From assembly GCF_020551945.1 (NCBI RefSeq), contig NZ_JAJBZH010000005.1, forward strand, positions 248,001-312,000: a stretch of 64,000 nucleotides of DNA. Reading direction: 5' to 3'. The notes beneath the pieces are model-generated. The model did no database searches, had not been told where the DNA came from, and was given only the letters and a program-made list of their open reading frames with translations. Source of the DNA: Cellulosimicrobium marinum (lineage in GTDB: Bacteria; Actinomycetota; Actinomycetes; Actinomycetales; Cellulomonadaceae). The position numbers and the translations under genes were made by a program. Below are positions 15,647 to 23,067 of this stretch, piece after piece (the stretch's first letter is position 1; every line of letters begins with the position of its first letter).

Positions 15647-15985
15647 TCAGATCGTGCGGACGGGGACCTCTCCGGCGACCTGCGCCGTCCGGCCGAGGAC
15701 GTCCACCGGGACGGACTGCACGGTGAGCAGGTCGCCGGGGGCGACGTCGCCGTCGCCGCTGACGTCGACGTGCACGCGCACGGTCGCGCCGACGGGCGCG
15801 TCGTCGACGTCGACGGCGAAGGGCACGCGGCCCCCGGGCGCCACGTCGACGCCCGGCAGGACGGCCTCGGCGAGCCGGACGGAGGCGGCGTCCTGGAGGG
15901 TGGTGTCCTCGACGGAGACGCGGACGGTCGCGACGGCGCCGGGTGCGTCGTCGGGGAGGGCGACGGTGCCGTACAGGGTGGTCAT
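15647..15985 (-). CDS. Small beta-rich protein (YbaY-like)
   Basis: A 112-residue protein beginning MTTLYGTVALPDDAPGA, with alternating short strands (ATVRVSVEDTTLQDA, GRVPFAVDVDD, ATVRVHVDVSGDG) and ending VPVRTI. The pattern 'strand, valine-rich, DTTLQDA' recalls the YbaY/YscW-type domain. However, there is no lipobox or signal peptide, so a cytoplasmic location is expected. Its start overlaps the stop of the ATP-grasp gene as ATGA, so it is very probably co-translated with it and is a candidate substrate or partner of that ligase (inference). Confidence 0.65.
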   Translation of the reverse strand: MTTLYGTVALPDDAPGAVATVRVSVEDTTLQDAASVRLAEAVLPGVDVAPGGRVPFAVDVDDAPVGATVRVHVDVSGDGDVAPGDLLTVQSVPVDVLGRTAQVAGEVPVRTI

Positions 15986-16944
15986 GCGACCACTGTGACA
16001 CGGTCCCGGACGGCGAGCGCCTCGACGACGGCGTCGGTCAGGAGCAGTCCCGTGAGCTCCTCGCAGAACAGCCACAGGCCGGCCGGGTTGACCTCGAAGA
16101 ACACGTGCTCGCCCGCGGGCGTGCGGCGCAGGTCGACGGCGCCGTAGACGAGGCCGAGCCGGTCCATGAGCGCCCGCAGCCGTGCGAGCACGTCGGCGGG
16201 GAGCTCGACGGCGCGCACGGCCGCCTCGTCGAGCACCATGCGCATGTCGCTGGGCAGGCTCGTCGCGGTGGCGTCGATCTCGGTCGTGTAGGCGGTGCCG
16301 TCGACCATGGTGACGCGCAGGTCGACGCCGGGCACGTACTCCTGGAGGATCGTCGGGGCGTAGCGCACCTGGTCGAGGCGGGCGACGTCGTCGGCGTCGA
16401 GCAGGTGGGTCTCGCGCCACGCGTCGAGGCGCGCGATGAACGCCTTCGTCACGACGTGCCCCGGCCCGCCGAGCGCGGCGACGACCTCGCGGGCCCGCTC
16501 GGGGTCGCGCGTGACGGCGGTGCGGGGGAGAGCGAGGCCGAGGTCGGCGGCGACGGCCCATTGCCAGGGCTTGTGGTGGGCGTCGGCGTCGGCGCGAGGG
16601 TCGTTGACCCAGCGCAGCGGCAGGGACGCGACGACGCCCTCGAACACCTCGGCGAGCTCGCTGCTCACGAACCCGGCGGCCGACGGGTCGGCGACGGCCG
16701 GGTCGGGCGGGAGCCCGCGCAGGCGGCGCCACCAGCCCGTGGTGGCGTGCGCGAGGTCGTGCTCGACGCCGTCGACGACGAGCCGCATCCCGGCCGGCTC
16801 GCCGGTGCCGTACCCCAGCTCGAGGGAGCTCGTGGTGCCAAGGGTCGAGGTGTCGAGGACGACGACCTCGTGGCCGAGCGCCCGCAGGCGCTCGACCACG
16901 ACGGCCGTGTGGTCGTCGTCCGGCCAGCTGACGACGAGGATCAT
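15982..16944 (-). CDS. ATP-grasp ligase, MvdD-like
   Basis: A 320-residue ATP-grasp enzyme. The N-terminal pre-ATP-grasp domain opens MILVVSWPDDDHTAVVVERL and carries the WWRRL element typical of the MvdD/graspetide ligase branch. HHKPWQWAVAADLGLALPRT and VVTKAF form the ATP-binding region, and HVFFEVNPAGLWLF holds the metal-binding E-x-N. Relatives form ester or amide bonds on ribosomal peptides using ATP. The substrate here is unknown. It lies between an astacin-type protease gene (11 bases upstream) and the YbaY-like gene (four-base overlap), so all three look like one transcript. Confidence 0.82.
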   Translation of the reverse strand: MILVVSWPDDDHTAVVVERLRALGHEVVVLDTSTLGTTSSLELGYGTGEPAGMRLVVDGVEHDLAHATTGWWRRLRGLPPDPAVADPSAAGFVSSELAEVFEGVVASLPLRWVNDPRADADAHHKPWQWAVAADLGLALPRTAVTRDPERAREVVAALGGPGHVVTKAFIARLDAWRETHLLDADDVARLDQVRYAPTILQEYVPGVDLRVTMVDGTAYTTEIDATATSLPSDMRMVLDEAAVRAVELPADVLARLRALMDRLGLVYGAVDLRRTPAGEHVFFEVNPAGLWLFCEELTGLLLTDAVVEALAVRDRVTVVA

Positions 16945-16955
16945 CGGCCCGCCCC

Positions 16956-18344
16956 TCAGAGCCCGGCCTCGGCGGCGGCCTGCTCGGCGAGGCCCGCGAC
17001 GGTCTCGCGCAGGGCGTCGAGCGCGGTGACGACCTCGGCGAGGACCACGGCGAGGTCGGCCGCGGAGGTGCCCTGCCCGGCGTCGGCCGCCGTGCCGGCC
17101 ACACCGGCCTGCTGCGCCATCGCCGCCTGGTAGCGGCTGACGAAGTCGCTGTCGCGGCCGAGGACGAACGGGACCGAGCGGCCGAGCGCGGGGTTCACCA
17201 CGGGGATCTCGGGCCGGACGGGGCCGACCACCTCGCGCAGCGTCGGCTGGGGGTCGCGCGGGCCCTTCACCGGGTCGAGCACGGGCTTGATCGGGTCGCG
17301 CAGCTGCTTGATCGGGTCGCGCAGCGGCTTGAGGACCTCGTCGCGGGGCTCCTTGACGATCTCCTTGAACGGCTCCTTGACGTCCTTGAGCGGCTCCTTG
17401 ATCGTGGTGATCTCCCCGACGTCGCCGACGGGCTCCTTCACGACGTCCTTGATGGCCGTCTTCGGCCACGCCAGGCCCGGGTACATGAGCTTGAGCCCGG
17501 CGAGGTCGCCCGCGGACAGCGACGTGCGCTGGCCGATGACGGTCCCGGCGGGGACCGTCCCGATCGGCACGATCGTCGGCTGACCGTTCTTGGAGAACGC
17601 CGTCGTCGGGTAGTGCATGATCGAGCCGTAGTCGTACCCGCCGAGGTCGTCGCCGTCGCTGATGTGCTGGGTGAAGTTGTGCTCCTTGCCCGCCTCGATG
17701 TTCGCGAAGTTGATCTGCACGAACGCGTCGCGGTCCTCGCGGGACTGCTCGTGCCACAGGCCGACGGCGTGCGCGATCTCGTGGATCGTGTTGCCGACCG
17801 TGCAGCCCGGCCCGAGCGTGATGTTCTGCTGCCCGCCGCGGCGACCGACCGCGGAGCTGCACCCGCCGCCGCCCACGAACCGCACGAAGTCCGCCTCGCC
17901 GTTGCGGGGGACCAGGCGCAGGGGCGTCTTCGCGTGCCAGTGCGCGATCGCGTTGTGCACGCGCGACGGGTTGTCGAGCGCGCCGTCGATCTCGAACGGC
18001 ACCACGCCGTTCGGCCAGCGGAACTGCTGGCCGCTGATGCCGACGGCGTGCGCGACCTGGCCGCCGTCCTCGTCGGAGGTGAGGGTCGCGACGTCGCGCG
18101 CCTGCGCCTCCTCGACGGTGCCGATGACGATGTCGCCCTCGACGATCGCGAGCCCGTCGACCTCCGCCCACACCACGGGCAGCGACGCGAACCCGTAGCC
18201 GTCGACGAGCGCCGTCCCGCCGACAGGCCCGGCAGCCTGCTCGCACGACAGGTGCACGCCCGGCCCGGACGGCTTGCCCGGGGTGGTGCGGCGGTTCCGG
18301 GTGGTGCCGGACCGACCGCCCGACGAAGCCTTCTTCTCGACCAT
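16956..18344 (-). CDS. Astacin-like (M12A) metalloprotease with repeat tail
   Basis: A 462-residue protein. Residues 100-290 form an astacin catalytic domain: WPNGVVPFEID near 110-120, zinc-binding HEIAHAVGLWHEQ at 188-200, and the Met-turn SIMHYP at 241-246. Cys34 could serve as an inhibitory switch in the N-terminal region (a guess). The tail (residues 297-375) is a degenerate repeat of KEP/RDP units spaced about 4-8 residues (VKEP, IKEP, VKEP, VKEP, then LRDP, LRDP). It ends in an alanine-rich helical segment. No signal peptide is visible, although astacins are usually secreted. It is the first gene of the ATP-grasp set. Confidence 0.85.
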   Translation of the reverse strand: MVEKKASSGGRSGTTRNRRTTPGKPSGPGVHLSCEQAAGPVGGTALVDGYGFASLPVVWAEVDGLAIVEGDIVIGTVEEAQARDVATLTSDEDGGQVAHAVGISGQQFRWPNGVVPFEIDGALDNPSRVHNAIAHWHAKTPLRLVPRNGEADFVRFVGGGGCSSAVGRRGGQQNITLGPGCTVGNTIHEIAHAVGLWHEQSREDRDAFVQINFANIEAGKEHNFTQHISDGDDLGGYDYGSIMHYPTTAFSKNGQPTIVPIGTVPAGTVIGQRTSLSAGDLAGLKLMYPGLAWPKTAIKDVVKEPVGDVGEITTIKEPLKDVKEPFKEIVKEPRDEVLKPLRDPIKQLRDPIKPVLDPVKGPRDPQPTLREVVGPVRPEIPVVNPALGRSVPFVLGRDSDFVSRYQAAMAQQAGVAGTAADAGQGTSAADLAVVLAEVVTALDALRETVAGLAEQAAAEAGL

Positions 18345-18938: not shown

Positions 18939-19060
18939 CCGACGAGCCTAGTCCGCTCCCGGGGCGCCCCCGCCGGAACGACGGCCTCGCCCGTGTGGGG
19001 TACGCGACACGAGGTGCCCGGGCCGACCGGGGCCGTCCCGCCGCTGCCGGGCGGCCGGGC

Positions 19061-19873
19061 TCAGGGCGCGTGGTGCCGCCCGATCGGCACGACCATGGGG
19101 GTGCCGGAGACGGGGTCGGGCACGACGCGCGAGCGCATCCCGAACACGTCGAGCACCATCTCCTCCGTCACGACCTCCTCCGGCGCGCCGGCCGCGTACA
19201 GGGCGCCCTCGCGCACGGCGACGAGGTGGTCGCTGTAGCGGGCGGCGAGGTTGAGGTCGTGCAGCACCATGACGACCGTGACCGCGCGGCGGCGGTTGAG
19301 GTCGACGACGAGGTCGAGGACCTCGACCTGGTGCGCGACGTCGAGGAACGTCGTCGGCTCGTCGAGCAGGAGCACGTCGGTGCGCTGGGCGAGCGCCATC
19401 GCGATCCACACGCGCTGGCGCTGGCCGCCGGAGAGCTCGTCGACGGGCCGGTCCGCGAGCTCGTCGACGCCGGTGAGCACCATCGCCTCCGCGACGGCCT
19501 CCTCGTCGGCCGCGGTCCAGCGCGACAGGAACCCCTGGTGCGGGTGCCGGCCGCGCGAGACGAGGTCGGCGACGACGATGCCGTCGGGCGCGACCGGGGT
19601 CTGGGGGAGCAGGCCGAGGACGCGCGCGAGCTCCTTCGTCGGCGTGCGCGTCACGGCACGCCCGTCGAGCACCACCTGGCCGGAGCGGGGGACGAGCAGG
19701 CGCGCCATGGCGCGCAGCAGGGTGGACTTGCCGCAGGCGTTCGCGCCGACGACGCAGGTGATCGCGCCGCTCGGCACGACCATCGACAGGTCGTCGACGA
19801 CGACGCGCTCGCCGTACGCGAGACGCACGTCCTCGACGGCAAGGGTGTGCCCGGTGGTGGGGGGCGTGCTCAC
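19061..19873 (-). CDS. Iron-siderophore ABC transporter ATP-binding protein
   Basis: A 270-residue FecE/FepC-type ATPase: Walker A GANACGKSTLL near residue 43, signature LSGGQRQRVWIAMALAQ, Walker B DVLLLDEPTTFLD, and switch histidine VLHDLNLAARYSDH. It energises the two FecCD permeases encoded immediately upstream for ferric-siderophore import. Start GTG 19873 overlaps the preceding stop by four bases. It is the last gene of the four-gene import operon. Confidence 0.93.
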   Translation of the reverse strand: MSTPPTTGHTLAVEDVRLAYGERVVVDDLSMVVPSGAITCVVGANACGKSTLLRAMARLLVPRSGQVVLDGRAVTRTPTKELARVLGLLPQTPVAPDGIVVADLVSRGRHPHQGFLSRWTAADEEAVAEAMVLTGVDELADRPVDELSGGQRQRVWIAMALAQRTDVLLLDEPTTFLDVAHQVEVLDLVVDLNRRRAVTVVMVLHDLNLAARYSDHLVAVREGALYAAGAPEEVVTEEMVLDVFGMRSRVVPDPVSGTPMVVPIGRHHAP

Positions 19874-20937
19874 AGGGAGCCTCCGTTCCGGTTGCTGCGC
19901 ACGAGCAGCACGATGAGGTAGGGCGCGCCGATCGCCGCCGTGACGACGCCCACGGGGAACGTCGTGGAGAACGCGTGCTGACCCACGGCGTCCGCGAGGA
20001 CGACGAGCAGGGCGCCGACGAGCGCCGACGGGGCGAGGAGCGTCCCGCCGCCGGGCACGAGGCGGTGGGCGATGGGCCCGGCGAGGAACGCGACGAACGC
20101 GATGGGTCCCGTCGTGGCCGTGGCCACGGCGGCGAGCGCGACCGCGCCGAGCACGAGGAGCAGACGCGTGGGGGCGACGGGCACGCCGAGCTGGGTCGCG
20201 GCGTCGTCCCCGAGCGGCAGGACGCGCAGCCGCCGGGAGACGACGGCGAGCGCGGGCAGGACGACGGCCACGGTGAGCGCGAGCGGGGGCACGCCGGGCC
20301 AGAACGCCGTCGACAGGCTGCCGGTGAGCCACCGCATGGCGCCCTGGACCTCCCACTGGTCCGCGCGCAGCAGCTGGTAGGAGACCCAGGCGTCGCACAT
20401 CGCGGCGATGCCGATGCCGATGAGGATGAGGCGGGTTCCCGCGGTGCGTCCCGTGCCCGCGACCGCCGCGATGAGCCCGGCGACGACGAGACCGGAGACG
20501 GTCGCGAAGGCGGACAGGGCGAGGCCGGACAGGCCGAGGACGGTGATGCCGGTGACGGCGGCGGCGCTCGCACCCGCGGTGATGCCGATGATGTCGGGGC
20601 TGGCGAGCGCGTTGCGGAGCATGGTCTGGAAGATCACGCCCGAGACGCCGAACGCGGCGCCCGCGAGGACCGCGGTCACCGTGCGCGGCAGGCGCACCTG
20701 GCCGACGGTGTAGCTCGCGCCGGGGACGTCCTGCCCGGCGAGGACCCGCAGGACGTCGGGCAGGGGGTGGCTGGGCGTCCCGACGACGAGCGCCGCGCCG
20801 GCGGCGACGACGAGGGCGACGGCGAGGGCGGCGACGACCGCGGCCCGGCGGCGGGACCCGTGCCGGCGGACGGCGCGCAGCCGGTCCGTGGCGCGGGCGA
20901 CGGCGGCCTCGGGGTGAGCCGTGACGGGGGCCGTCAC
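19870..20937 (-). CDS. FecCD-family siderophore permease (second subunit)
   Basis: A 355-residue polytopic permease. After the first membrane segment comes RLPRTVTAVLAGAAFGVSG, then the conserved NALASPDIIGITAGAS and the cytoplasmic coupling region RLRVLPLGDDAATQLGV. The late TGPIAFVAFLAGPIAHRL is also typical. These are hallmarks of FecD/FepG subunits. It pairs with the next permease upstream as a heterodimer. GTG start 20937 overlaps the first permease stop by four bases. Confidence 0.93.
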   Translation of the reverse strand: MTAPVTAHPEAAVARATDRLRAVRRHGSRRRAAVVAALAVALVVAAGAALVVGTPSHPLPDVLRVLAGQDVPGASYTVGQVRLPRTVTAVLAGAAFGVSGVIFQTMLRNALASPDIIGITAGASAAAVTGITVLGLSGLALSAFATVSGLVVAGLIAAVAGTGRTAGTRLILIGIGIAAMCDAWVSYQLLRADQWEVQGAMRWLTGSLSTAFWPGVPPLALTVAVVLPALAVVSRRLRVLPLGDDAATQLGVPVAPTRLLLVLGAVALAAVATATTGPIAFVAFLAGPIAHRLVPGGGTLLAPSALVGALLVVLADAVGQHAFSTTFPVGVVTAAIGAPYLIVLLVRSNRNGGSL

Positions 20938-21992
20938 AGCTCGGGGATGCGCGCGCGGCGCACGATCGCGATGAACACGGGAGCTCCGAGGAAGGCGGTG
21001 ACGATGCCGACGTCGATCTCGGTGGGCCGGGCGACGACCCGGCCGACGACGTCGGCGGCGAGCAGCAGGGTGGCGCCCGCGAGCAGCGAGTAGGGCAGGA
21101 CCCAGCGCTGGTCGGGTCCGACGAGCGCCCGGACCGCGTTCGGCACGACGAGGCCGACGAACGCGATGGGGCCGGCGAGCGACGTCGCGACGGCGCACAG
21201 CAGGACGGCGCCCGCCGCGGAGATCGCGCGCACCCAGCCGACGTGCGCGCCGAGGCCCGTGGCGAGGTCGTCCCCGAGGGCGATGGCGTTGAGCCCGGGC
21301 GTGGACAGCAGGCACGCCGCCGCCCCGACGAGCGCGAGGGGCGCGAGCTGGGCCATCGCCGCGGGCTCGGCGCCGGACAGCCCGCCGACCTGCCAGAACC
21401 GGAACGTCGTGAGCATCTCGACGCGGGGCAGGAGCACCGCGCTGACGAGGGCGGACAGCGCGGCCGTGGTGGCCGCGCCCGCGAGCGCGAGCTTGAGGGG
21501 CGAGGCGCCGCCGCGCCCGAGGGACCCGACGGCGTACACGCCCACCGCCGTGAGGGCGGCACCCGCGAACGCGAACCACACGAACTGACCGGGGCCGGAG
21601 ATGCCGAGGAACGCGATGCCGCACACGACGGCGAGCGACGCGCCGGTGGTGATGCCGAGGATGCCTGGGTCGGCGAGAGGGTTGCGCGTCACGGCCTGCA
21701 TCACGGCCCCCGCGAGGCCGAGCGCCGCCCCGATTAGGAGGCCGAGGACGGTGCGGGGCAGGCGCTCGCGCACGGCGATGCTCGCCACGTCCGTGCTCGA
21801 CGGGTCCGTCAGCCCGGTGACGACCTCGCCGACCGAGACGACCCGCGACCCGAACGCGACCGATGCCGCGACGGCGGCGAGCAGGACGGCGAGCAGGACG
21901 ACCAGCCCGACGGCGCGCCGTCGGGCCAGCCGTGCCCGCGTGGTCGTCCGCGGCGAGGGGGCGTCCGGGGGACGCACCGCGGTGCTGGTCAT
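20934..21992 (-). CDS. FecCD-family siderophore permease (first subunit)
   Basis: A 352-residue permease with about nine hydrophobic segments. It has RLPRTVLGLLIGAALGLAG, NPLADPGILGITTGAS, the coupling region LNAIALGDDLATGLG, and LAGPIAFVGLVVPNAVRAL. The charged N-terminal tail of about 28 residues is cytoplasmic. It lies 19 bases after the binding-protein gene and is coupled to the second permease. Confidence 0.93.
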   Translation of the reverse strand: MTSTAVRPPDAPSPRTTTRARLARRRAVGLVVLLAVLLAAVAASVAFGSRVVSVGEVVTGLTDPSSTDVASIAVRERLPRTVLGLLIGAALGLAGAVMQAVTRNPLADPGILGITTGASLAVVCGIAFLGISGPGQFVWFAFAGAALTAVGVYAVGSLGRGGASPLKLALAGAATTAALSALVSAVLLPRVEMLTTFRFWQVGGLSGAEPAAMAQLAPLALVGAAACLLSTPGLNAIALGDDLATGLGAHVGWVRAISAAGAVLLCAVATSLAGPIAFVGLVVPNAVRALVGPDQRWVLPYSLLAGATLLLAADVVGRVVARPTEIDVGIVTAFLGAPVFIAIVRRARIPEL

Positions 21993-22011
21993 GGGACGGC
22001 GGCCGCCCCGG

Positions 22012-23067
22012 TCAGGAGGCGTCGTCGGCGGCGGCGCCGAGCAGCGCGACGTACTCGTCGAGGCCCCAGTCGAGGGACAGGGGGCTCGGCGGGGAGAACG
22101 CGCCCGCGAGCGACGAGCCGTCCTCGAGGAGCGCGACGGCACCGCTCTCGATCGCGGGGATCGTGCCGAGCAGCGGGTCGTCCTGCATCGTGGCGAGCAG
22201 CGCGTCGTCGCCGTAGGTGACGATCATGTCGACGTCGATGAACAGGTCCGCGTTCTCGGCGCTCACCGTCGTGTAGAAGCCCTCGACGTCCGCCGACGCC
22301 TCGACGACGCTCGCGGGCATCTGCAGGCCGAGGTCCTCGAGGAAGGAGACCCGCGGGTCGAGCGGCGTGTAGAACCCGATGGTGCCGAGGTCGGTGGGGT
22401 CGACGTAGAAGAACGCGACGGTCCGGCCCTCGAGCGACGGCTGCTCGGCCGCGGCCGCGGCGATGGTCTCCTCCATCTCGGCGACGAGGGCGTCGCCCTC
22501 CTCGGGCACGCCCAGCGCCTCGGCGTTGCCCGTGACGATCTCGCGCCACGCCGTGCCCCACGCGACCTCGGGGTACGCGACCGTCGGGGCGATGCCCGTG
22601 AGCTGGTCGTACTCCTCCTGGGTGAGCCCCGAGTACGAGCCCAGGACGACGTCGGGCTGCGCCTCCGCGATCGTCGCGAACGCCACGCCGTCCGTGTCGT
22701 CGAAGACCACCGGGTAGTCGTCCGCGCCCTCGGTCACGCCGAGGTCCTCCAGGCCCGCCTCGACCCACGGCAGCACGCCGTCGCCGTCGTCGTCGCCGTA
22801 GGCCTGGGTGGGCATGACCACGGGCACGACGCCGAGCGCGATCGCGACGTCGTGGTTGATCCAGCCCACCGACGCTGGCCGGTCGGCGGACTCGACCGTC
22901 GTGGAGCCGAGCGCGTGCTCGACGGTGACGGGGAGCGCCCCGGCGGTGTCGGCGTCGCCCGACGCCGTCGCGCCGGTGTCGGCGTCCGTGCCGTCGGCGC
23001 CGGAGCAGCCGGTGAGGACGAGGGCGGTCGCGGCGGTGGCGGCGACGAGGGAGAGGCGGGTGCGCAC
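22012..23067 (-). CDS. Ferric-siderophore-binding lipoprotein
   Basis: A 351-residue lipoprotein. The signal peptide ends in lipobox VLTGC (Cys21), followed by a Gly/Asp/Thr-rich linker. The class III binding-protein (FecB/FhuD-like) domain includes PASVGWINHDVAIALGVVPV, AQPDVVLGSYSGLTQEEYDQL and the C-terminal DWGLDEYVALL. It would capture the ferric siderophore outside the membrane and pass it to the FecCD permeases. GTG 23067 starts the signal peptide. An iron box lies 24-42 bases upstream of the start. Confidence 0.92.
   Translation of the reverse strand: MRTRLSLVAATAATALVLTGCSGADGTDADTGATASGDADTAGALPVTVEHALGSTTVESADRPASVGWINHDVAIALGVVPVVMPTQAYGDDDGDGVLPWVEAGLEDLGVTEGADDYPVVFDDTDGVAFATIAEAQPDVVLGSYSGLTQEEYDQLTGIAPTVAYPEVAWGTAWREIVTGNAEALGVPEEGDALVAEMEETIAAAAAEQPSLEGRTVAFFYVDPTDLGTIGFYTPLDPRVSFLEDLGLQMPASVVEASADVEGFYTTVSAENADLFIDVDMIVTYGDDALLATMQDDPLLGTIPAIESGAVALLEDGSSLAGAFSPPSPLSLDWGLDEYVALLGAAADDAS

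Follow-up and report, generated by a model that had tools for sequence, protein, structure and literature searches.

In fused-core RiPPs such as the borosins and the BURP-domain burpitides, core and enzyme share one polypeptide and the fused enzyme is the modifier. Among the graspetide ligases, branch 7 is described in the cited parts of Makarova et al. (2022, PMC8939145) as accompanied by unrelated peptidases and often by a YscW homologue, with no precursor found and at loci without other T3SS parts. According to excerpts of PMC13003496, RPFG is the proposed recognition element in the ThfA leader, which still functions when moved to the C-terminus. Corallotide (graspetide group 15) is presented in the cited portion of PMC13097080 as a large substrate with KxxxD repeats and isopeptide bonds.

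The trio of genes and its ligase

The window analyzed here is a 64-kb stretch of Cellulosimicrobium marinum DNA. Three of its genes concern us:

16956-18344, minus strand: astacin protease gene, 462 aa, ATG start
15982-16944, minus strand: ATP-grasp ligase gene, 320 aa, ATG start
15647-15985, minus strand: gene of a small protein with YscW/pilotin fold, 112 aa, ATG start

The original prediction described a same-strand trio with a gap of 11 bases between astacin and ligase and an overlap of 4 bases between ligase and small protein. ORF coordinates confirmed this arrangement, and the protease gene is intact. The trio is not a chance neighborhood, as the same three genes recur side by side in close relatives, where the prediction had suggested looking for them, and at astacin-type ligase loci. 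PADLOC matched none of the three with a listed defence protein.

The protease matches Pfam Astacin (E-value = 3.4e-49), while its score against NCBIfam LegP (286 bits) lies under the cut-off of 300. Its HExxHxxGxxHExxR pattern, which we take to be the zinc-binding motif, holds five residues (H188, E189, H192, H198 and E199) that are invariant across 21 aligned astacins, and the SIMHYP that it also carries is presumably the Met-turn. With a domain above the Pfam cut-off and both of these elements, it is an astacin (M12A). The following features lie within it:

17739..17783, minus strand: HEIAHAVGLWHEQSR, residues 188-202, HExxHxxGxxHExxR pattern
17244..17456, minus strand: repeat tail, residues 297-367, proposed cross-linked core
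17142..17171, minus strand: PFVLGRDSDF, residues 392-401, local form of the PF[VIA]L motif
16968..17063, minus strand: C-terminal helix, residues 428-459, in the AlphaFold2 model

The ligase carries the MvdD pre-ATP-grasp domain (Pfam, 1.5e-6, 28.7 bits), barely above the cut-off of 27. Its profile matched the solved structures 5ig8 (2e-63), 5ig9 (1e-62), AMdnB (1e-61) and CdnC (9e-54), and the top six matches, down to 7drm (4e-42), are graspetide synthetases or annotated as MvdD-like. Of these, 5ig8 is MdnB and 5ig9 is MdnC; 9bou on the ligase tree is presumably ThfB. RimK-type ligases (4e-12) and D-Ala ligase (0.005) followed at a distance in the same search. Judged by these profiles, the ligase stands nearer to the graspetide synthetases than to ligases of RimK or cell-wall type, and its predicted place among the peptide-modifying enzymes was upheld. 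It scores under the cut-offs of TIGR04184/04185/04187 (129/475, 138/425 and, for TIGR04187, 194/350 bits) and, lying below all named maturase models, would belong to a divergent branch and to none of the named subfamilies. By gene content (peptidases of unrelated families, a YscW homologue, no precursor) it matches branch 7 of Makarova et al. A search of ORFs of at least 45-80 aa at the ligase loci returned no classical small precursor, one with its leader at the N-terminus and its core at the C-terminus, in agreement with the prediction; motif and repeats sit inside the enzyme instead. The prediction had also considered the missing precursor a novelty, a point anticipated in 2022 by the description of a ligase branch that has peptidases and YscW homologues around it but no precursor (PMC8939145, cited parts).

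Tails and partners of the enzymes encoded 5' of the ligase

From 245 confirmed ligase loci the best 80 were analyzed. Directly 5' of the ligase, these encode an astacin (36), a trypsin-like protease (17), an M43 protease (12), a subtilase (4) or a tyrosinase (2), with five ORFs uncertain and four lacking a Pfam hit, classes being assigned by phmmer clusters with representatives checked in Pfam; one tyrosinase was recognized by Pfam (L051) and the other by its cluster (L068). Nearly all of these carrier enzymes end in a Lys/Pro/Asp-rich repeat tail followed by a PF[VIA]L(xTPHH)-like motif. That tyrosinases bear this tail too speaks against a link that is purely proteolytic. A motif profile (>8 bits) recognized the 5' ORF in 65 of the best 80 loci and only one other among 9473 ORFs. 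When trained on astacin loci only, it matched the 5' ORF of 33 loci among the 55 not used for training and one ORF elsewhere (at least 10 bits), a procedure that only partly removes the circularity of drawing seeds from ORFs that are later counted. The 15 loci missed by the first profile carry mostly variants, as judged by eye; one of them is cut by the contig end (L078) and another is without any such protein (L099). A hydrophobic N-terminal stretch was absent in 72/74 carriers by a crude test, and their location may therefore be cytosolic. PADLOC, applied to four other carriers, matched one, a subtilase (L048), with a generic subtilase model.

Tail statistics were drawn from 71 carriers, namely the window's and those of 70 loci, leaving out L067, in which the regular expression detected no motif, as well as carriers that were small, short or of uncertain kind. 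Relative to the rest of the protein, tails are rich in K (4.25x), P (1.95x) and D (1.6x), unchanged in Glu (0.96x) and Thr (1.04x), and poor in Ser (0.61x) and C (0.12x). Compared with shuffled tails, Asp follows Lys at +4 3.0 times and at +5 4.2 times as often, and Lys/Thr/Ser stands ahead of the acid 1083 times, as against 828 in the opposite order and 548 for the forward order in shuffles. The window's own repeat tail (71 aa: 11 K, 8 D, 7 E, 12 P and 2 T) has 13 Lys/Thr/Ser residues with Asp/Glu 3-5 residues downstream (shuffled mean 6.4; 13 was reached in 1/2000 shuffles). Residues 297-426, with pLDDT <50 in AlphaFold2, are predicted to be disordered. The window's motif is without TPHH, a variant that the motif profile misses in close relatives of the window.

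Across the enzyme classes, tail type and ligase show a modest correlation (rho 0.22; equaled or exceeded in 3/1000 within-class permutations). For instance, one astacin (L058) has a ligase that groups among those of M43, S8 and tyrosinase loci, and its tail has the TLKFRDD repeats of these classes. The ligase tree holds seven enzyme-class changes, the minimum for six classes being five, and its starred branches force at most one per class; few enzyme swaps are proven, because loci of one class mostly group together on the tree.

Astacins with and without an adjacent ligase served as a natural control. Tail and motif were present in 10/10 with the ligase and in 0/5 without (Fisher p = 3.3e-4), a small sample whose rows are related to each other. 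Left out of this table were a partial and weak astacin match (G740), an astacin whose visible part is tail-less and runs off the contig (G227) and two weak additional pieces in G065. Of the two substrates that the original prediction had proposed, the small protein and the repeat tail of the protease, the tail is the best candidate.

The small protein resembles Pfam YscW (0.0075, 17 bits) under the cut-off of 22.6, and its predicted fold is that of a pilotin; by eye, neither signal nor lipobox was seen at its start, MTTLYGTV. Of the 38 astacin-type loci among the best 80, 37 have the ligase flanked by an astacin and a YscW-like gene (the exception is L089); two of the 38 (L071 and L078) were counted by context, the protease being out of frame or cut by the contig end. 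Astacins are followed by the YscW-like gene in 10/10 cases with an adjacent ligase and in 5/5 without. Since this holds irrespective of the ligase, the product of the gene is probably the partner of the protease, as inhibitor or chaperone. A different small partner occurs in 12/12 M43 loci of the best 80, and the recurrent small neighbors found at ligase loci are class-specific partners (astacin, M43). The natural controls separate two modules, ligase with tail and astacin with YscW-like gene.

Proposed stapling of enzyme tails and rival readings

Ligase family, tail, motif, co-occurrence and controls can be read from the sequences themselves, and from them we infer docking, cross-linking, link chemistry and the roles of tail and partner. 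With a probability of about 0.75, the ligase would be a graspetide synthetase acting on the disordered C-terminal tail of the enzyme encoded 5' of it. It would dock at the PF[VIA]L(xTPHH) motif close to the C-terminus of the enzyme and, with ATP, link the side chains of Lys, Thr or Ser with those of Asp or Glu within the disordered repeat tail that lies between catalytic domain and motif, turning the tail into a string of small macrocycles. The stapled tail would stay on the enzyme, with a probable role in stability, targeting or export. It would occupy a C-terminal slot that holds other sequence in ligase-free relatives. The small partner, a YscW-like protein in the case of astacins and a different one for M43 proteases, appears linked to the catalytic domain, which it probably holds in check or chaperones.

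The tail could be modified as proposed and yet be a built-in inhibitor of microviridin or plesiocin type, silencing the protease until it is cut off. Microviridins and plesiocin do inhibit serine proteases, the latter more strongly with more repeats (PMC13097080, in part), and the possibly cytosolic location of the carriers would also fit. We nevertheless consider this unlikely, as very similar tails occur on metalloproteases, serine proteases and tyrosinases, and astacins and M43 proteases already have their class-specific small partners.

RimK-family ATP-grasp ligases add amino acids or other small molecules to proteins, and a tagging of the tail in this manner, with no internal side-chain links, would be in line with the weak similarity to RimK-type ligases and with Lys- and Asp-rich tails, which fit both chemistries. 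It seems distinctly improbable, given that graspetide synthetases are far closer (2e-63 versus 4e-12), that the MvdD domain is above its cut-off and that the PF element is like that of the ThfA leader.

Little credence is also given to a protease that acts elsewhere, either cutting peptides from precursors encoded at other loci for the ligase to modify, or maturing or protecting from an unseen graspetide. The former has been published for branches 7 and 8 (PMC8939145, 2022) and the latter for neighboring proteases (PMC13097080, 2026), each in the parts cited, and peptidases are indeed the most frequent ligase neighbors in the best 80 of 245 loci. However, a tyrosinase with the same tail takes the place of the protease in two loci, exactly the tail is missing from astacins without adjacent ligase, and the constant neighbor is the motif-bearing tail and not one protease fold. 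Finally, the YscW-like protein, put forward as substrate in the original prediction, has hardly any chance of being one: its gene adjoins and overlaps that of the ligase, but relatives stand beside 0/42 astacin-free ligase loci (best 80 of 245) and at 5/5 assessable astacins without adjacent ligase, and the protein is predicted to be a compact beta sandwich with no disordered core.

Proposed stapled enzyme tails among known graspetide systems

Taken more broadly, we lean toward a system that spans phyla, with a graspetide synthetase stapling transferable C-terminal tails onto entire enzymes, namely tyrosinase and members of at least four protease families, some of which have a guard protein of their own. 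It would be a natural graspetide modification at the level of proteins, with its recognition motif at the C-terminus, and would solve the missing precursor of the branch and probably also that of the M6-linked second branch. What we propose as new is the enzyme's own C-terminus as precursor, the tyrosinase carriers and a YscW-like gene tied to the astacin only. If true, graspetide chemistry would reach beyond small peptides and staple tails of bacterial enzymes. A ligase group without known substrates since 2022 would gain one (PMC8939145, in its cited parts), and the motif would be a natural C-terminal recognition tag like the hand-engineered ones (excerpts of PMC13003496). Tag and tails could serve to staple further proteins. 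The class-specific partners, for their part, are candidates for new inhibitors of proteases of the astacin and M43 types.

As in borosins and burpitides, the core shares its polypeptide with an enzyme, but here that enzyme is a protease or a tyrosinase, with a separate ligase as the proposed modifier. Graspetide group 32 also has diverse neighboring protease families, and its ligases are possibly the same as ours, although the quoted text of PMC13097080 reads these proteases as maturation or resistance genes. With corallotide our carriers share repeated Lys-Asp sites (KxxxD) in a large substrate; the same excerpts do not present its precursor as an enzyme, place an oxygenase alongside the synthetase and restrict the system to Corallococcus. 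The likeness to branch 7, compared by gene content alone, lies in the same gene content at these ligase loci, but in the cited parts of PMC8939145 the peptidases are suggested to cut other proteins, whereas here the enzyme's own tail is the proposed precursor. ThfB and ThfA resemble our system in a PF element (RPFG in ThfA, PF[VIA] here), an unstructured substrate and a nucleophile before the acid (PMC13003496 and PMC12291112, as excerpted). In ThfA, a small precursor, the leader is naturally N-terminal, while here the motif is C-terminal to the core in an enzyme of 400-600 aa; a C-terminal leader, tolerated there in engineered constructs (PMC13003496, in part), would here be the natural arrangement.

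Ligase branch and recurrence of the cassette

A profile built from 16 relatives of the ATP-grasp ligase was run against all solved structures, and the best matches were 5ig8 (2e-63), 5ig9 (1e-62) and AMdnB (1e-61), followed by 9bou (5e-57; annotated as an 'MvdD-like pre-ATP grasp domain' protein), CdnC (9e-54) and 7drm (4e-42). We take 5ig8, 5ig9 and 7drm to be MdnB, MdnC and PsnB, and 9bou to be ThfB, the label used in the ligase tree. RimK-type ligases (4e-12) and D-Ala ligase (0.005) came lower down, so that the ligase, originally predicted to be MvdD-like, does not group with cell-wall or glutathione-type enzymes. None of the named maturase models scores P0002 above its cut-off. A quick tree was built with 91 rows, among them 80 relatives, the window, five reference sequences from the PDB and a second, distant type of ligase; in it, a branch with an SH-aLRT of 96 parts the relatives and the window from the references and the second type. 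The long outlier X_L022 was also placed inside the relatives' side, although this placement is unsure.

Cassette in the window
P0001, minus strand: astacin (462 aa), with the motif PFVLGRDSDF at residues 392-401
P0002, minus strand: ATP-grasp ligase (320 aa)
P0003, minus strand: small protein of YscW/pilotin fold (112 aa)
18948-23067, next to the trio: ORFs that, by eye, we presume to serve siderophore-type iron uptake (an ATPase, two permeases and a binding protein)

A survey of one genome per species gave 245 confirmed ligase relatives, and the best 80 of these 245 were used below. They belong to Actinomycetota, Pseudomonadota, Acidobacteriota, Planctomycetota, Chloroflexota, Bacteroidota, Verrucomicrobiota, Krumholzibacteriota and Myxococcota, the last with a single locus (L099) that lacks a carrier, i.e., an enzyme encoded 5' of the ligase and bearing a C-terminal repeat tail and a PF motif. 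The three-gene set of the original prediction is real: it recurs among the surveyed loci, as the cassette of a ligase branch that is known but still an orphan. A ligase 38% identical lies unannotated on a Burkholderia stagnalis megaplasmid (L166, a 3.2-Mb plasmid record).

Among 17 genomes drawn from the genus, the astacin cassette is present in 4 and a trypsin-like (S1) cassette in 6; another 6 lack both, and the last has an S1 fragment. P0005-like and glycosyltransferase-like genes adjoin both kinds (the window and L026-L028; L098 and L104), the two kinds sitting on opposite sides of this pair, which was not seen in L025. In G129 (L163), the same two genes that flank the trypsin-like cassette of L165 (G124) are about 660 bases apart, too close to hold it, making this an apparent empty site.

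Carrier enzymes, PF motif and repeat tail

Carrier classes were phmmer clusters named via Pfam-tested representatives. Directly 5' of the ligase, the best 80 of 245 loci encode an astacin (36), a trypsin-like protease (17), an M43 peptidase (12), a subtilase (4) or a tyrosinase (2; L051 by Pfam at 3.3e-41, L068 by clustering with L051). The ORF had no Pfam match or was not tested in L061 (length unsure), L091, L092 and L095, and five are uncertain (L071, L078, L081, L099, L101), being out of frame, cut by a contig end or without such a protein. In L061, L091, L092 and L095 the neighbour has no recognised enzyme domain and carries the PF motif mid-protein, flanked by repeat blocks on both sides in L061, L091 and L095. 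Stops interrupt the ligase frames of the Streptomyces loci L071 and L089, which are probably decayed or mis-sequenced copies; the L071 motif is in a different frame from its astacin.

Towards the C-terminus of the carriers, the repeats commonly give way to a short linker, which leads into a PF[VIA][LM]x(T)PHH-like motif and then a terminus that looks helical. An 18-column motif profile (>8 bits) matched the 5' ORF in 65 of the 80 loci and 1 other among 9473 ORFs. Since its seeds came from the same ORFs (61/80), the profile was retrained on class subsets: astacin-only seeds (25) matched 33 of 55 loci outside training at ≥10 bits, and non-astacin seeds (36) matched 24 of 44, with one match elsewhere each. 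Most of the 15 loci missed at >8 bits show visible variants, including the window type PFVLGRDSDF.

Repeats in carrier tails
TLKFRDDP: astacin L058; M43 peptidases L055, L057; tyrosinases L051, L068
TLKFRDD/TLKAADD: subtilase L048
TIKEVRKDPIQDPV: astacin L031
PETLKEL: astacin L065
PTSIIDDRG: trypsin-like protease L060

Tail composition was taken from the 110 residues preceding the motif and compared with the rest of the protein in 71 carriers, one from the window and 70 from the other loci. Lys (4.25-fold), Pro (1.95) and Asp (1.6) are enriched and Ser (0.61) and Cys (0.12) depleted, with no overall enrichment of Glu (0.96) or Thr (1.04). Asp occurs at +4 and +5 of Lys at three to four times, and Lys at +2 of Thr at five times, the shuffled frequency. 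Lys/Thr/Ser stands 3-5 residues before an acid 1083 times, against 828 in reverse order and 548 for the forward order in shuffles. The window tail, predicted to be disordered, has 13 such pairs against 6.4 shuffled, a count reached by 1/2000 shuffles.

Between carriers of unlike enzyme domain, the more alike the ligases are, the more similar the tails tend to be (rho 0.22; 3/1000 within-class permutations as high), a modest correlation which points to a tail that follows the ligase. Enzyme classes mostly cluster on the ligase tree: six classes need at least 5 changes and 7 are required here, with no more than one per class demanded by strongly supported branches. The clearest swap is L058, a TLKFRDD-tailed astacin among M43, subtilase and tyrosinase ligases. 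A YscW-like gene lies beside 37 of 38 astacin-type loci versus 0 of 42 others, and a different protein of ~100 aa near the M43 gene start in 12/12 M43 loci and no other of the 80; no equivalent was recognised in the S1, subtilase and tyrosinase loci among ORFs above the lower size limits of 45-80 aa. Going by this distribution over classes, the small partners found belong to the enzyme domains, for which a guard (inhibitor) or chaperone role would be the natural reading. Upstream of the trypsin-like carrier, 7 of 17 S1 loci (L044, L060, L072, L080, L082, L087, L088) share a large ORF resembling, by eye, an alpha/beta hydrolase.

Astacins with and without a neighbouring ligase

Whole-astacin searches of 150 family genomes (8 matches) and 246 Streptomyces genomes (8 matches), with a PF01400 search of 396 genomes (11 matches over the cut-off, nine partial ones set aside), gave 16 astacins of this type. 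A ligase adjoins ten (G000, G007, G011, G065, G093, G118, G150, G564, G615, G689), all with tail and YscW-like gene, G615 being judged by match extent and motif match. Of the six without one, five are complete (G058, G116, G553, G646, G739) and have neither tail nor motif, while all five keep the YscW-like neighbour; the sixth (G227, L125) is cut short by the end of its contig, with no tail in its visible part and the neighbour on that side out of view. Tail presence (10/10 versus 0/5) gives a Fisher p of 3.3e-4, which is rough because the rows are related. In the ligase-free astacins the C-terminal slot holds DUF346 repeats (L139, L125, by eye L140) or other sequence; L120, L121 and L141 carry other, unnamed modules. 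No graspetide-type ligase was detected genome-wide at 1e-10 in G058, G116 and G227, and more distant ones lie elsewhere in G553, G646 and G739.

A second, distant ligase type neighbours an M6 peptidase (Pfam 1.1e-24 in L108) in L108, L109 and L110 (G081, G101, G044). The tail of this peptidase is of the KDLKE type, and the protein finishes in PFIDQTLRPDLIG or PFIGADLRPTLVG; the enzyme-tail principle appears to be the same there. At L111 (4701-6359), an ORF beside distant-type ATP-grasp ORFs bears a Lys/Glu/Asp-rich repeat tail and is followed by a very large ORF.

Proposed mechanism and known systems

We propose the PF motif of the neighbouring enzyme as the docking site for the ligase, which would staple Lys/Thr/Ser to Asp/Glu within that enzyme's own tail. 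For a purely computational case, the evidence that this tail is the substrate is strong, and we put its probability at roughly three in four. The tyrosinase carriers argue against peptide release by the carrier's own protease as a general rule. By a crude test, 72 of 74 carriers of at least 300 aa lack a hydrophobic N-terminal stretch; stability, targeting, export and inhibition are candidate roles for a stapled tail.

Ligase branches 7 and 8 have been described with peptidases 'of several unrelated families' and no precursor, frequent YscW homologues in branch 7 and a truncated ATP-grasp in branch 8, the peptidases being suggested to cut other proteins (Makarova et al., 2022, PMC8939145). An ORF resembling, by eye, such a truncated ATP-grasp precedes the ligase of L020 (same place as L108), as in branch 8. 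The diverse proteases neighbouring graspetide group 32 were interpreted as serving maturation or resistance (Carter et al., 2026, PMC13097080). The available portions of both papers make no mention of a protease tail and, as far as the literature searched shows, protein-level graspetide modification would be new. In ThfA, the tetrapeptide inferred to mediate recognition is RPFG, and ThfB remains active when the leader is relocated C-terminally (Johnson et al., 2026, PMC13003496); the PF core is identical in the present motif. The nucleophile-first order and KxxxD spacing of the tails also agree with the rules and cases in the available text of PMC12291112 and PMC13097080, although the tail repeats show both orders.
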